The notes below the pieces were generated by a model, which was not told the DNA's origin, did not search any database, and saw only the letters and a program-made list of their open reading frames with translations. Below are positions 1,521 to 56,830 of a stretch of 64,000 bases of DNA, one piece after another; position 1 is the stretch's first letter, and the number at the start of each line of letters is the position of its first letter. Position numbers and translations under genes: made by a program. This stretch comes from Ichthyenterobacterium magnum (GTDB taxonomy: Bacteria; Bacteroidota; Bacteroidia; Flavobacteriales; Flavobacteriaceae). The stretch covers positions 682,474 to 746,473 of the forward strand of contig NZ_RAQJ01000001.1 of assembly GCF_003610635.1 (NCBI RefSeq), written 5' to 3'.

Positions 1521-1548
1521 GTCATTCCGAATTTATTTCGGAATCTCA
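1521..1548. repeat. GTCA-family palindrome, forward copy
   Basis: Reads GTC, then 8-bp arms ATTCCGAA (1524-1531) and TTCGGAAT (1537-1544) around TTTAT, then CTCA. It forms a head-to-head pair with the inverted copy at 1572-1599, separated by 23 bases. No T-run follows. Confidence 0.8.
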
Positions 1549-1571
1549 TTACAGAACAGAAAAGTAGTATG

Positions 1572-1599
1572 CGACTCTGAAACTAGTTCAGAGTGACGT
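1572..1599. repeat. GTCA-family palindrome, inverted copy
   Basis: 8-bp arms ACTCTGAA (1575-1582) and TTCAGAGT (1588-1595) around ACTAG, followed by GACG, which is the reverse complement of the CGTC that starts forward copies. With 1521-1548 it makes one composite inverted repeat in the gap before the cyclo-ligase gene. Confidence 0.8.
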
Positions 1600-24764: not shown

Positions 24765-25174
24765 ATGAAACATTTAAAACCATTGCAAAATTTCAATACT
24801 CCTCAGAAGCTCAAATTATAAAAGGTCGCTTAGAGGCAGAAGGGATTCAAGTATTTTTATCAGATAACTTAACTATCGATACAGACCCATTAATAAGTAA
24901 TGCTATTGGAGGCGTTAAACTTAAGGTTTTATCAAGTCAAGAAACAGAAGCAAAAAACATATTACAAACCATAAAAAAATATTCGGTTGATGATGATGGC
25001 AATCAAATGGAATGTCCAAACTGTAACAGCAAAAAAATACAATTGTTTTCAACCATAACAAGTTTAAAATCCTTTTTTGCTTTTCTTATTGGTTTTCTGT
25101 TTGGAACACTTCCTTTTCACACAAGATATAAGTATAAATGTGACCAATGTAAAACCGAATTTAACACTAAATGA
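24761..25174 (+). CDS. DUF2007-domain protein with C-terminal zinc ribbon
   Basis: 137 residues. N-terminal part (1-70) matches DUF2007, a ferredoxin-like signal-transducing domain (FKTIAKFQYSSEAQIIKGRLEAEGI). The C-terminal part has CPNC (about 87-90) and CDQC (about 129-132) around a hydrophobic segment (SFFAFLIGFLFGTLPF), so a zinc ribbon interrupted by a membrane-embedded hairpin or helix is likely. Overlaps bioF and bioD by 4 bases on each side (ATGA), so it is translationally coupled within the biotin operon, but its role there is unknown. Confidence 0.8.
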   Translation: MNETFKTIAKFQYSSEAQIIKGRLEAEGIQVFLSDNLTIDTDPLISNAIGGVKLKVLSSQETEAKNILQTIKKYSVDDDGNQMECPNCNSKKIQLFSTITSLKSFFAFLIGFLFGTLPFHTRYKYKCDQCKTEFNTK

Positions 25175-25788
25175 AAACATATTTTATAACAGGAATTGGA
25201 ACAGACGTAGGCAAAACTGTAGTTTCAGCAATTTTAACTGAAGCTTTACAGGCAGATTATTGGAAACCTATTCAAGCAGGAGAAGTTAATAACTCAGACT
25301 CGCACGTTGTAAAAAGATTAATCTCTAATAACAAATCAAAATTCCATGATAGTGCTTATGTTTTAAATACACCTATGAGTCCTCATGCAGCTGCAGATAT
25401 TGATGGTGTATCAATAAAAACGAAAGATATTATTGAGCCTAAAACTAAAAATAATTTAGTTATAGAAGGTGCAGGTGGCTTATTGGTTCCTATCAATAAT
25501 ACGCAAACCATATTAGATTTAATAAAACCAAATTATAATGTAATTGTTGTTTCTCGCCATTACTTAGGAAGTATAAATCATACACTTTTAACCATAAAAC
25601 TTCTTCAAGAAAAAGGGTTTAATGTATCGATACTTTTTAGTGGAAACGAACATGAAACTACAGAGGCTATTATTCAGAAAATGACTAAGGTTCCTATTAT
25701 AGGAAGAATTAATGAAGAGCCTTACTTTGATAAAAACGTTATTAAAGAATATGCCGAATTGCTTAAAGGTAAATTAACGTCACCCTGA
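25171..25788 (+). CDS. bioD: Dethiobiotin synthetase
   Basis: ATP-dependent closure of the ureido ring, giving dethiobiotin from DAPA and CO2. 205 residues. P-loop GIGTDVGKT at about 7-15, KPIQAGE, the VIEGAGGLLVPI block and VVSRHYLGSINHTLLT. The last three sense codons and the TGA stop lie within a palindromic repeat (25778-25805), so the C-terminal TSP tail derives from the repeat; the true ancestral end may have been slightly different. Start ATG overlaps the DUF2007 stop. Confidence 0.96.
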   Translation: MKTYFITGIGTDVGKTVVSAILTEALQADYWKPIQAGEVNNSDSHVVKRLISNNKSKFHDSAYVLNTPMSPHAAADIDGVSIKTKDIIEPKTKNNLVIEGAGGLLVPINNTQTILDLIKPNYNVIVVSRHYLGSINHTLLTIKLLQEKGFNVSILFSGNEHETTEAIIQKMTKVPIIGRINEEPYFDKNVIKEYAELLKGKLTSP

Positions 25789-25805
25789 ACTTGTTTCAGG
25801 GTCAC
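25778..25805. repeat. GTCA-family palindrome, forward copy (left end of GIY-YIG cassette)
   Basis: Starts CGTCA, with 7-bp arms CCCTGAA (25783-25789) and TTCAGGG (25795-25801) around CTTGT, then TCAC. It contains the bioD stop codon and ends 8 bases before the GIY-YIG start codon. The inverted partner is at 26101-26126. Confidence 0.85.
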
Positions 25806-25812
25806 ACAAACT

Positions 25813-26091
25813 ATGAAAACAAGTTATGTTTACATATTAACTAACAAATATAGAACTACATTTTATATTGGAGTTACTACCAACTTAGAAAAAAGACTTC
25901 AAGAACATCATGAAGAGATAGCTTCAAAATTCACTAAAAAGTATAATACTAAAGATTTAGTTTATTTTGAAACTTTTATAGATATTGAACAAGCAATAGC
26001 TAGAGAAAAACAATTGAAAAATTGGCATAAAGAATGGAAGTTGAATTTAATTAAGACCATAAATCCGACATTAAAAACATTAGATTACTAA
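25813..26091 (+). CDS. Small single-domain GIY-YIG endonuclease
   Basis: 92 residues, the whole protein being one GIY-YIG nuclease domain (YhbQ/UPF0213-like). Catalytic landmarks: Y7 in YVYIL, FYIG (Y18), R28 in NLEKRLQEH, H32, and the metal-binding E65 in AIAREKQLKNW. It lies between bioD and bioA and has no evident role in biotin synthesis. Inverted palindromes flank it closely on both sides, which suggests it travels with them. Alternatively it is a resident DNA-repair-type nuclease beside which the repeats happened to insert. Confidence 0.92.
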   Translation: MKTSYVYILTNKYRTTFYIGVTTNLEKRLQEHHEEIASKFTKKYNTKDLVYFETFIDIEQAIAREKQLKNWHKEWKLNLIKTINPTLKTLDY

Positions 26092-26100
26092 CTAAAATAA

Positions 26101-26126
26101 GATGCTGAATCAAGTTCAGCATGACG
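26101..26126. repeat. GTCA-family palindrome, inverted copy (right end of GIY-YIG cassette)
   Basis: 7-bp arms TGCTGAA (26103-26109) and TTCAGCA (26115-26121) around TCAAG, then TGACG. Its reverse complement starts CGTCA and has the loop CTTGA, so it mirrors the copy at 25778-25805. It ends 4 bases before the bioA start. Confidence 0.85.
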
Positions 26127-26130
26127 AAAA

Positions 26131-27396
26131 ATGACCTTAAACCAACGCGATAAAAAACACCTTTGGCATCCATTAACGCAACACAAATTGCATCCAAACA
26201 ACATTGCTATTACTAAAGCAAAAGACTGCGTACTTTATGATGAAAATGGAAACAGTTACATTGATGCCATTTCATCTTGGTACACATGCATGTATGGTCA
26301 TTGTAATGATTATATAACCAATCGTGTTTCAACCCAAATGCAACAATTACATCATGTGGTTTTTAGCAGTTTAACTCATGAGCCAGCAATAAAACTGTCT
26401 GAAGAATTGATATCGATTCTTCCAAACAATCAAGAAAAATTATTCTTTAGTGATAATGGTTCGACCAGTGTTGAAATAGGAATTAAAATGGCTTTGCAAT
26501 ACCATTTTAATCAAGGTGAAAAACGTAATGTATTAATTGCTTTTGAAGATGGTTTTCATGGTGACACTTTTGGAGCCATGAGTGTTTCTGGATTATCTGT
26601 TTATAATGGTCCTTTTAAAGACTTTTTCTTAGATGTAAAACGCATTCCAACTCCTAATGGCAAAAATCATAATGCTATTTTAAATACACTTCAAGATATT
26701 ATTAAAAATAATAATGTTGCTGGTTTTGTTTACGAGCCATTAGTACAAGGTGCAGCAGCTATGAAAATGCATAATGCTGAAGGCTTAAATGCAATATTAA
26801 AATTATGCAAAGCTCATAATATTATTACTGTTGCAGACGAGGTAATGACAGGCTTCGGAAAAACTGGAACTTATTTTGCTTCAGATCAAATAGAAACTAA
26901 GCCAGATGTAATATGTTTGAGTAAAGCTTTAACTGCTGGTATTATGCCAATGGCAATTACATCATGTTCTCAAAAAATTTATGATGCATTTTATAGTGAT
27001 GACCTTAGTAAAGGTCTATTTCATGGTCATACCTATTCTGCTAATCCGTTAGCATGCACTGCAGCTTTAGCAGGAATTGAATTGCTTAAATCAGAAACCA
27101 TAAAAAATAGCATTAACACTATTATCAACTCGCATAAAAAGTTTAATAAACATATAAAAAGCCATCCAAAGGTAAAATCTACACGACAGCTAGGAATTAT
27201 TTATGCGCTAGACTTAAATATTGAAATGGAACGCTATGGAAATTTACGTGACAAGCTATTCAAATTCTTTTTAGATAATGGTGTGTTTTTACGTCCGCTA
27301 GGAAGTACAATTTATATACAAGCACCTTATATCATAACGCAAACCGAATTACAAAAAATATATCAGGTTATTGAAGACGCTTTAGAAACTCTCTAA
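26131..27396 (+). CDS. bioA: Adenosylmethionine-8-amino-7-oxononanoate aminotransferase
   Basis: PLP class III aminotransferase converting KAPA to DAPA with SAM as amino donor. 421 residues. HLWHPLTQH at the N-terminus, AISSWYTCMYGH, FSDNGSTSVEIGIKMALQYH, DEVMTGFGKTG and the PLP lysine in CLSKALTAG (about 276), followed by FHGHTYSANPLACTAAL. The start codon is 4 bases after the palindromic repeat. Order bioF, DUF2007, bioD, bioA on one strand suggests a common transcript that has to cross the GIY-YIG cassette. Confidence 0.97.
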   Translation: MTLNQRDKKHLWHPLTQHKLHPNNIAITKAKDCVLYDENGNSYIDAISSWYTCMYGHCNDYITNRVSTQMQQLHHVVFSSLTHEPAIKLSEELISILPNNQEKLFFSDNGSTSVEIGIKMALQYHFNQGEKRNVLIAFEDGFHGDTFGAMSVSGLSVYNGPFKDFFLDVKRIPTPNGKNHNAILNTLQDIIKNNNVAGFVYEPLVQGAAAMKMHNAEGLNAILKLCKAHNIITVADEVMTGFGKTGTYFASDQIETKPDVICLSKALTAGIMPMAITSCSQKIYDAFYSDDLSKGLFHGHTYSANPLACTAALAGIELLKSETIKNSINTIINSHKKFNKHIKSHPKVKSTRQLGIIYALDLNIEMERYGNLRDKLFKFFLDNGVFLRPLGSTIYIQAPYIITQTELQKIYQVIEDALETL

Positions 27397-27491: not shown

Positions 27492-28667
27492 TTGAAGCAA
27501 CCTATATCTATAACAACTATTGCATCAATTTCTCCATTAGGGAATTCATCTGAGAGCATTTGGAACAACTACAAAAACAATTCGCATTGTATTGTAGAGA
27601 AAAACGGTGTTTTAATCTCAGAATTATCTAAAAACCTAAAAACTGAAATTGAAAACTTAAAAGCTTCCGAATCAAAATATAAGTCTTTAGATAACTCTGT
27701 TTTATTTGCAATCTATACTTCTAGAAAAGCTATAGAAAAAGCAAATTGGAACGCTTCAGATAATTTCGGAATTAACATTGGATCATCACGAGGAGCCACT
27801 CAGTTATTTGAAACATATCACGAAGATTTCTTAAAAAACAATAAAGCCAAAACACTAAGTTCTCCAACAACAACTCTAGGCAATATATCGTCTTGGGTTG
27901 CTCACGATTTAAAAACTAAAGGCCCAGAAATTAGCCATTCTATAACATGCTCAACAGCATTGCATGCAATGCTAAATGGTATTGCTTGGATAAACTCTGG
28001 TATGTGTAAAAAGTTTTTAGTTGGCGGAAGCGAAGCGCCTCTTACTCCTTTTACTATTGCTCAAATGCAAGCACTAAAAATTTATGCAAATAACAAATGT
28101 CATTCTGAGCCTGTCGAAGAATCTTTCCCATGTCGAGCCTTAGACACTTCTAAAAAAGAAAACACAATGGTTCTTGGAGAAGCTGCTGCTTCATTATGTT
28201 TAGAGCAAGGTGAAACTCCTAATGCATTAGCATCAATAATTGGTATTGGTTATGCAACTGAGTTGTTAGAACATAACGCATCATTATCAGCAAATGCAAT
28301 ATGTTTTCAAGATTCTATGCGTATGGCTTTAGGTAATACAAATCCAGATGATGTAGATATTATAATTACACATACACCTGGAACCATAAAAGGCGATATT
28401 GCAGAATATAATGCTATTAAAAAAATATTTTGTAACAAAGCTCCTTCATTAACGAATAACAAATGGAAACTAGGGCATAGTTTAGGAGCTTCAGGATTGT
28501 TAAGTGTAGAAATGGCTGTTTTAATGCTTCAACATCAAGAGTTTATTTCAGTTCCCTTTTTTGAGGAAAAGCGTCCAAAAAAAATTACTAAAATTTTAGT
28601 AAACGCTGTTGGTTTTGGAGGCAACGCCGTAAGCATTCTTTTAAGTTTACCTAACACAAAAAACTAA
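27492..28667 (+). CDS. Beta-ketoacyl synthase in the biotin cluster, with in-frame repeat insertion
   Basis: Thiolase-fold condensing enzyme, 391 residues. Catalytic triad: C153 in SITCSTALHAM, H294 in THTPGT and H329 in KLGHSLGASG, as in KAS I/II. Its place between bioA and bioB suggests a role in making the pimeloyl precursor, or a side role in fatty-acid chain extension; this is inference. Residues about 204-211 (HSEPVEES) come from a palindromic repeat inserted in frame before the conserved PCRALDTSKKENTMVLGE. The start is TTG (TTG-Lys), since no ATG exists before the conserved ISITTIASISPLG strand and a -7 box lies just upstream. Confidence 0.85.
   Translation: MKQPISITTIASISPLGNSSESIWNNYKNNSHCIVEKNGVLISELSKNLKTEIENLKASESKYKSLDNSVLFAIYTSRKAIEKANWNASDNFGINIGSSRGATQLFETYHEDFLKNNKAKTLSSPTTTLGNISSWVAHDLKTKGPEISHSITCSTALHAMLNGIAWINSGMCKKFLVGGSEAPLTPFTIAQMQALKIYANNKCHSEPVEESFPCRALDTSKKENTMVLGEAAASLCLEQGETPNALASIIGIGYATELLEHNASLSANAICFQDSMRMALGNTNPDDVDIIITHTPGTIKGDIAEYNAIKKIFCNKAPSLTNNKWKLGHSLGASGLLSVEMAVLMLQHQEFISVPFFEEKRPKKITKILVNAVGFGGNAVSILLSLPNTKN
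28099..28124. repeat. GTCA-family palindrome inside the ketosynthase gene
   Basis: Reads GTC-ATTCT-GAGCCTGTCGA-AGAAT-CT; arms ATTCT (28102-28106) and AGAAT (28118-28122). It has the same GTCA head and TCT tail as the intergenic copy at 1521-1548 and is translated as CHSEPVEES. Confidence 0.8.
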
Positions 28668-51583: not shown

Positions 51584-51611
51584 CGTCATGCTAAACTTGT
51601 TTAGCATCTCA
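51584..51611. repeat. GTCA-family palindrome, forward copy
   Basis: CGTC, then 8-bp arms ATGCTAAA (51588-51595) and TTTAGCAT (51600-51607) around CTTG, then CTCA. Solo copy between the cupin gene and the dehydrogenase gene. Confidence 0.82.
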
Positions 51612-56801: not shown

Positions 56802-56830
56802 TGAGATTCCGAAACAAATTCGGAATGACA
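56802..56830. repeat. GTCA-family palindrome, inverted copy
   Basis: TGAG, then 8-bp arms ATTCCGAA (56806-56813) and TTCGGAAT (56819-56826) around ACAAA, then GACA. Same arm sequence as the copy at 1521-1548 but in opposite orientation. Solo copy. Confidence 0.8.

Follow-up and report, generated by a model that had tools for sequence, protein, structure and literature searches.

A gene for a 92-residue, single-domain GIY-YIG nuclease lies between two inverted palindromic repeats of the CGTC type at the bioD-bioA junction of the window (the whole stretch of DNA analysed, 64,000 nt; the genome to which it belongs, Flavobacteriaceae-like judging from its closest matches, comprises 3.0 Mb on 16 contigs and is called the host genome below). 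Small GIY-YIG nucleases and CGTC REPs are genuinely and widely associated. The locus is probably a REPtron-like element, i.e. the gene of a site-specific GIY-YIG nuclease between inverted CGTC REPs that are recognised by the enzyme, with gene-less REP pairs as non-autonomous derivatives; the enzyme would bind and cut these REPs and drive their spread. This reading draws on anatomy, non-random association, oriented pairing, matching of nuclease clade and stem class, and genome-level co-occurrence. It further draws on one junction found both with and without the gene, on an intermediate in decay, on purifying selection, and on the fold and the conserved residues of the protein. CGTC REPs were defined in a 2013 survey (Di Nocera, De Gregorio and Rocco, PMC3733652), in the consulted sections of which they have a CGTC or TGTC tag, a stem of 8–9 bp with A-T at positions 1 and 2 'almost invariably', a loop of 4–5 nt and a 3-nt tail, occur mainly as head-to-head dimers in Proteobacteria, Chlorobi, Bacteroidetes, Spirochaetes and Thermotogae, and 'apparently lack a dedicated transposase'; the mobiliser was left open there, and CGTC elements near other transposase genes were regarded as fortuitous links. 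Our data point to the GIY-YIG family as the missing partner of these widespread, small, scattered repeats, and with an enzyme family inside CGTC REPs with matching stems the question of the mover becomes directly testable.

Coordinates of all features are given in Table 1. The ORFs, the hairpins and the ends of the initial annotation were confirmed, with CGTCA starting at 25778 and TGACG ending at 26126. The hairpins proper (25782–25802 and 26102–26122, both with 8-bp arms and a 5-nt loop, as in the CGTC REP range) are of opposite orientation, the left unit (25778–25802) reading CGTC-ACCCTGAA-CTTGT-TTCAGGGT and the right unit (26102–26126) ATGCTGAA-TCAAG-TTCAGCAT-GACG; the CGTC tag is outside the stem at 25778–25781 and, inverted, at 26123–26126. 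The first two stem pairs are both A-T in the right REP, and the first only in the left REP. Hairpin and gene are separated by 10 nt on both sides (25803–25812 and 26092–26101; 11 nt with the shorter stems used before), and the distances of 8 and 9 nt given previously were corrected. The bioD stop codon (25786–25788), overlooked in the initial annotation, is inside the left palindrome, so that the end of bioD appears altered by insertion (where the junction is empty, bioD and bioA overlap by ATGA, see below). Of the bioF-DUF2007-bioD-bioA series described around the element, bioD and bioA stood, with NCBIfam scores above cut-off; the bioF-like ORF had bioF as top NCBIfam model with 337 bits, below the cut-off of that model, and the second ORF was marginally below cut-off for DUF2007 (24.9 vs 25.7 bits).

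Table 1. Positions of the element, its neighbouring genes and related repeats in the window.
Feature	Position	Strand	Description or source
Element	25778-26126		CGTCA start to TGACG end; read from sequence
bioD, host gene of junction	25171..25788	+	C-terminus and stop codon in left REP
Left CGTC-type REP	25778..25805	+	CGTC tag, 8-bp stem ACCCTGAA/TTCAGGGT, 5-nt loop CTTGT, 3-nt tail; bioD stop codon within
GIY-YIG nuclease gene, 92 aa, single domain	25813..26091	+	ORF and Pfam PF01541
Right CGTC-type REP, inverted	26099..26126	-	Stem ATGCTGAA/TTCAGCAT, plus-strand loop TCAAG, GACG at end
bioA, next gene 3' of element	26131..27396	+	NCBIfam
Gene-less head-to-head REP pair, REPIN-like, 77 nt	1521..1597	.	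Hairpin scan
REP-like repeat, other stem class (GTCATTCTGAGCCTGTCGAAGAATC)	28099..28123	+	Within beta-ketoacyl synthase-like ORF 27492-28667
Lone dispersed REP-like hairpin, GTC + ATGCTAAA/TTTAGCAT	51585..51607	+	Hairpin scan
Lone dispersed REP, GTCATTCCGAATTTGTTTCGGAATC on minus strand	56805..56829	-	Hairpin and pattern scan

The 92-aa ORF was matched by Pfam GIY-YIG (PF01541) with E 5.2e-17, as expected from the domain described originally, and otherwise just by an overlapping T5orf172 match. An AlphaFold2 model (47 sequences) had a mean pLDDT of 89.5, and the columns invariant in the 47 aligned sequences include Y7, Y18, G20, R28, H32, E65 and N84. The Pfam domain over cut-off, the conserved Tyr/Tyr/Arg/Glu and the GIY-YIG fold place the protein in the GIY-YIG nuclease superfamily. 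The top PDB match of the model in Foldseek was the UPF0213 protein 1zg2 (E 2e-4), and structures of Slx1, a nuclease of branched DNA, were also among the neighbours, with weaker E-values (0.012 and above). UPF0213 and single-domain GIY-YIG proteins (PDB 1zg2, 1ywl) resemble the window protein in fold, size and domain; the PDB titles of these two entries state neither function nor a repeat link. Purifying selection was evident from seven gene copies, with dN 0.08–0.19 vs 45–85% of synonymous sites changed. By Pfam and fold comparison of the protein, the HUH motif with catalytic tyrosine (IS200/IS605-like) was absent. Of the RAYT-like layout with a GIY-YIG enzyme proposed initially, the inverted REPs and dispersed copies hold; RAYT identity of the enzyme itself was ruled out by its GIY-YIG domain and fold. 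An intron- or intein-borne GIY-YIG homing endonuclease was also rejected, as the ORF is free-standing between bioD and bioA and the group I intron endonuclease model scored 24.8 against a cut-off of 56.05 bits.

Homologues were collected by one peptide-pattern scan of the GTDB species collection, and the best 80 of at least 555 confirmed relatives were taken as a non-random sample. By title these belonged to Bacteroidota, Ignavibacteriae, Chloroherpetonaceae, Treponema, Mesoaciditogaceae, Alpha-, Gamma- and Deltaproteobacteria, Gastranaerophilales, Clostridia, candidate phyla and others. Chloroherpetonaceae, Treponema and Mesoaciditogaceae were taken by us to represent Chlorobi, Spirochaetes and Thermotogae; so placed, all five phyla of the 2013 survey are found among the homologue loci. 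L076 was left out of the flank tests (flank too short), giving 79 usable genes. A strict motif, defined as GTCA plus a perfect hairpin of at least 6 bp at most 120 nt from the gene, was present as a correctly oriented pair on both sides of 22/79 small GIY-YIG genes vs 0/204 other ORFs in the same loci, and in 0 of 790 mono-shuffled flank pairs. Counted by side, the motif was upstream forward at 38, upstream reverse at 8, downstream reverse at 36 and downstream forward at 24 of the 79 genes (7, 2, 4 and 6, respectively, at the 204 control ORFs), and the orientation bias was significant upstream (38:8, p 9e-6) and non-significant downstream (36:24, p 0.16). For a stem-blind test, the upstream flank was locally aligned with the downstream flank in reverse complement; a score of at least 12 was reached by 45/79 small genes vs 3/204 neighbouring ORFs. 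Mis-paired flanks (96/395 mis-pairs reached score 12) were discarded as null because the loci have the repeat in common, and neighbouring ORFs were taken instead. Long GIY-YIG proteins (456–629 aa; 19 loci, about 1.5 kb covered on each side of the domain) had 1 motif in total, off the repeat consensus. Among 13 small-gene loci run beside them, the strict motif was near the gene in 5 and absent in 8, some of the latter having other GTCA-type repeats by eye and two being at apparent tRNA genes. That GIY-YIG genes lie between inverted palindromes beyond chance, as had been proposed, is thus well founded; the anticipated objection of homologues without palindromes applies in part, small genes being flanked far above control, while 34/79 scored below 12 and 8/13 were without strict motif.

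Dispersal of the palindrome family was likewise above chance in pattern counts against reversed controls. The A-type pattern had 24 exact copies in the host genome (13 forward, 11 reverse) vs 0 for the reversed-pattern control, and 72 vs 9 with up to 2 mismatches (overlapping matches counted); a second repeat pattern had 75 vs 0. The broad palindrome pattern TGAA-N3..7-TTCA was rejected as uninformative, with 635 matches per strand vs 585 for the control. The gene-less head-to-head pair formerly placed at 1521–1599 is real and ends at 1597. A PF01541 search of the host genome gave eight loci, of which six are small genes and the other two code for long proteins, with open frames of 602 and 458. 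By eye, each of the small genes is between inverted repeats with a stem of its own, GTCATTCCGCGC at L004, GTCATTCCTGCG at L005 and GTCTTTCCCACG at L006 (L002 is the window gene), the repeats at L003 (GTCATTCTGA) and L001 (TTCGACAAGCTCAG type) being imperfect; in the strict automatic test the motif was on both sides of 2, on one side of 1 and on neither side of 3. The 14 gene-less pairs viewed in the host genome had the left tag CGTC in 7 and TGTC in 7, with some right tags degraded, and were diverged; recent near-identical copies were absent among them. Chimeric gene-less pairs, in which left and right stem classes differ, were seen in the same genome at L234, L235 and L221.

The bioD-bioA junction was compared among 149 genomes of the same family, 84 of which had bioA, and the best 30 loci were read; bioD was upstream of bioA on the same strand in 27. 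Eight of these 27 junctions had no insert and an overlap of bioD and bioA by ATGA, one had an overlap of 46 nt, five (host genome included) had an intact GIY-YIG gene between REPs, one (L129) had both REPs with the gene reduced to an 18-residue remnant, and 12 had other intergenic DNA; these 12 include REP pieces without the gene in L138, L139 and L145, pairs of other-class stems at L128 and L131, and a single one at L134. Three more genomes (G085, G143, G063) have a GIY-YIG gene between bioD and bioA, and in G144 and G113 a 74–79% identical gene with REPs on both sides is placed before bioD instead, i.e. one nuclease lineage occupies two junctions of the bio operon. The varied junction states (empty, full, decayed, repeat-only) and the placement in G144 and G113 show that the bioD-GIY-YIG-bioA order is not fixed, an order that would have spoken against the element; the empty junction looked for in genomes without the gene is present as the eight bare ATGA overlaps. 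The clean 4-nt overlap probably represents the ancestral empty site, although the junction states are compatible with gain as well as with loss. Inspection of the bioD-bioA junction by eye established no target-site duplication.

Repeat load was determined in the same 149 genomes, no two of which share a genus code; matches to alignment A1 with E at most 1e-10 were taken as small GIY-YIG genes. Such genes were present in 100/149 genomes, with 1 to 8 per positive genome and internal stops in some copies. The pattern GTCANNCNGAAN5TTCNGNNTC was present in 62/149 genomes, and its reversed control had 0 matches in all 149. In total, 693 copies were counted in the 100 nuclease-positive and 15 in the 49 nuclease-negative genomes. 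At least one copy was found in 54/100 genomes with vs 8/49 without nuclease (the latter retaining 1–4 repeats), 46/100 nuclease-positive genomes having zero repeats of this stem type; at least five copies were found in 35/100 vs 0/49 (p 1.6e-7, uncorrected for phylogeny), or 35/90 vs 0/31 for genomes of at least 2.6 Mb. Gene-less head-to-head pairs occurred in 24 of all 149 genomes, split as 24/100 with vs 0/49 without nuclease (p 3e-5, uncorrected for phylogeny). At least three A-type copies were found in 27/31 genomes encoding a nuclease closely related to that of the window (uncorrected for phylogeny; the A-clade cut-off of about 90 bits was picked post hoc from the score list), in 15/69 with other small GIY-YIG genes only and in 2/49 with none. 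Equal abundance of the palindromes in genomes lacking the nuclease, named beforehand as a contrary outcome, is therefore not what these counts give.

Clade-stem matching was analysed on a tree of 108 proteins with few columns and mostly weak forks; 7 of the 115 loci in the labelled set were left out (5 broken genes, 2 by length), and four row pairs are identical proteins, one each from the GTDB scan and the family genomes. The GAA-N5-TTC stem class (A) required 17 changes vs 36.1 when shuffled and the other stem class (B) 15 vs 28.5, with 0/500 shuffles as low in each case, a signal that is inflated by near-copies and shared ancestry. A weakly supported group of 37 rows contained 33 A, 3 mixed and 1 B, and a second group of 17 rows 15 B, 1 A and 1 none. 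Upstream/downstream labels at the 115 loci were A/A in 43, B/B in 19, discordant in 5, one-sided in 36 and neither in 12; since the class-B detector is permissive and without control, the 103/115 labelled loci are descriptive only. Nuclease clade predicts stem class, and both stem kinds occur in the host genome (L002 vs L004 and L005), so that host background alone does not explain the matching. The co-variation of nuclease subfamily and palindrome that had been suggested as a check is thus present, and the link between nuclease and repeats, originally an inference, is now supported by flank, co-occurrence and clade-stem data.

Outside the family, a plasmid search gave the homologue in 33 records at 37 places, from which 18 loci were chosen, some of them near-duplicates (Shinella, Sphingobium); gene bounds were estimated for the unannotated L241, L243, L244, L245, L249 and L253. 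A forward REP was upstream in 10, a reverse REP downstream in 10 and both in 9 of the 18 loci, the nine with an oriented pair all being from Alphaproteobacteria (six Rhizobiaceae, two Sphingobium, one Azospirillum). Tags at these nine were CGTC in 9 upstream, and CGTC in 6 and TGTC in 3 downstream (e.g. CGTCATCCTCGGGCTTGACCCGAGGATCCA). The strict motif was on neither side in 6/18, including the locus of Novosphingobium aromaticivorans, which is named as a CGTC-REP species in the consulted sections of the 2013 survey (PMC3733652). A homologue from Neisseria gonorrhoeae (L249, NZ_CP119140.1; 43.5% identical) lies amid CGTCATTCCCGCG-type CGTC REPs, whose orientation (reverse upstream, forward downstream) is contrary to most. 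In Azospirillum lipoferum, the gene separates sufB from sufC and is between CGTCATCCCCGCG REPs. In Sinorhizobium, one record has the gene and a remnant in tandem between gltA and lpxB, where another record has REPs only; this comparison (S. meliloti vs Sinorhizobium K101) gives gene presence/absence at one site, which by itself does not demonstrate excision, because direct repeats within REPs permit simple deletion. On a Planktothrix agardhii plasmid (L240, NZ_LR882964.1), a homologue with GTCATTCTGAG-type repeats around it was seen between an MmeI-like restriction-modification gene and the DISARM gene drmA.

Known REPtrons, as described in the consulted parts of two papers (PMC6006769, PMC3733652), have a RAYT (TnpA-REP) gene coding for an HUH-Y1 enzyme and mostly GTAG REPs, and apparently do not transpose as a unit. 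The element described here is like them in the enzyme gene between inverted REPs, in further, dispersed members of that REP class, in subclass-specific REPs, in gene-less inverted pairs and in patchy distribution, and unlike them in its enzyme (GIY-YIG vs HUH-Y1), in its tag (CGTC vs GTAG) and in the number of small genes, which is 1 to 8 in positive genomes; several stem classes are represented among these genes. Tag, stem, loop and tail agree with CGTC REPs, and head-to-head dimers occur in both; the GIY-YIG gene between them is a difference, as the survey reports no enzyme in the sections consulted (PMC3733652). At record level, no paper was found joining GIY-YIG to REP, REPIN, RAYT, palindromic repeats or transposases, and by title none retrieved with the core sequence GAACTTGTTTC was about such repeats. 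In the portions of text consulted, 'palindrom' is absent from a 2006 GIY-YIG phylogenomics paper (PMC1564403), and GIY-YIG from RepRanger (PMC12306157), PMC6006769 and PMC3733652. Neither the CGTC-REP link nor the REPtron-like element was found in the literature searched. Small GIY-YIG enzymes named Ssn, said to have been reported in Nat Commun in 2025, first in Neisseria and with stress on NTS and transformation, reportedly cut ssDNA at cognate repeats with many genomic copies. Ssn would thus be the closest known kind, likewise a small GIY-YIG enzyme tied to multi-copy repeats; part of the nuclease-repeat link would then already be published, and there would be a precedent for the enzymatic step. 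The points raised here are the identity of the repeats as CGTC REPs, the anatomy of a REPtron and the states of the junction.

For the REPtron-like element, the following course may be envisaged: a REP turned single-stranded (on the lagging strand, by transcription or by uptake) would fold as a hairpin, the GIY-YIG enzyme would cut the hairpin or the DNA next to it, and repair by the host would copy the REP sequence to new intergenic sites. Repair could alternatively delete the gene and leave the REPs, or occasionally re-insert the entire unit. A wider proposal, made tentatively, is that CGTC-REP/GIY-YIG units might be undescribed autonomous mobile elements of about 350 bp, with a hydrolytic GIY-YIG nuclease as sole enzyme, in several phyla and as the source of mover-less CGTC REPs. 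Should GIY-YIG enzymes indeed act on CGTC REPs, at least two unrelated enzymes would serve REP systems in bacteria, and a context would be given to many orphan genes annotated as 'GIY-YIG nuclease family protein'.

REP pairs amid larger repeated units, many with palindromic GAGGCTGTCTnAAAAG-like ends, were seen in G084, G138 and G123 (L184–L203, L227–L233); they are either nested mobile units or the result of a preferred palindromic target. In G084, 12 of 31 pairs were fetched and were inside larger repeated units, as were 8/8 pairs fetched in G138, and most of 7 fetched pairs (of 8) in G123 had similar outer ends. G084 is an exception in having the most A-type repeats (93), yet its sole small GIY-YIG gene is flanked by other stems, which together with the larger units indicates that other movers or targets exist. 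Because of these units, none of the pairs in the three genomes serves as proof of REPIN mobility, and the gene-less copies that are nearly identical within G084 and G138, at first sight suggestive of recent REPIN transposition, were rejected as cases of it. A homing-type parasite, i.e. a nuclease gene that cuts REPs spread by others and copies itself via REP homology without dispersing them, would accord with REPs inside other repeated units in these genomes, with REPs that persist without the gene, with the homology supplied by REPs at both ends, and with the S. meliloti locus, where a tandem gene remnant and the intact gene are between REPs; we regard it as doubtful, since repeat load strongly follows nuclease presence and clade, which a pure parasite predicts less well. 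The enzyme might also be a resident site-specific ssDNA nuclease with genomic REPs as marks, for example in tuning DNA uptake or transformation (reportedly the role of Neisseria Ssn), and mobility a side effect. Purifying selection, a GIY-YIG fold close to UPF0213 and Slx1, and the N. gonorrhoeae homologue between CGTCATTCCCGCG-type REPs are consistent with such a role, which we consider rather unlikely because the number of small genes (as many as 8 in a genome), internal stops and junction presence/absence are element-like. Movement of a MITE-like unit by a separate DDE or HUH transposase, with the GIY-YIG gene as passenger, would fit the fetched pairs of G084, G138 and G123, mostly inside larger units and many with GAGGCTGTCTnAAAAG-like ends, and is nevertheless very improbable: 14/14 host-genome pairs viewed are by eye without such outer ends, tracking of stem class is unexpected for a passenger, and the consulted sections of the 2013 survey describe merely fortuitous CGTC-transposase links (PMC3733652). 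Chance neighbourhood, in which a gene happens to be between two repeats frequent in intergenic DNA, has dispersal of the repeats in its favour and can practically be dismissed in view of the neighbouring-ORF, shuffled-flank and long-GIY-YIG controls.

Several further arrangements were observed. A tandem array of five GIY-YIG ORFs (mostly 136-aa open frames) with 391-bp spacing is present in G123 (L205, G123:C1:1215154-1216930), with a further copy beyond it at 1224197. Two GIY-YIG genes with equal scores, 512 bp apart and with repeats of a further class around them (L204, G108:C1:200562-201355), suggest tandem duplication of the entire unit. At L159 (G036) and L167 (G031), small GIY-YIG genes are by eye beside or inside apparent tRNA genes, and part of the tRNA sequence is repeated across the gene, as if tRNA genes replaced REPs in another branch. 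In the window itself, the GTCATTCTGAGCCTGTCGAAGAATC repeat is translated in frame within the beta-ketoacyl synthase-like ORF, giving the peptide CHSEPVEES.
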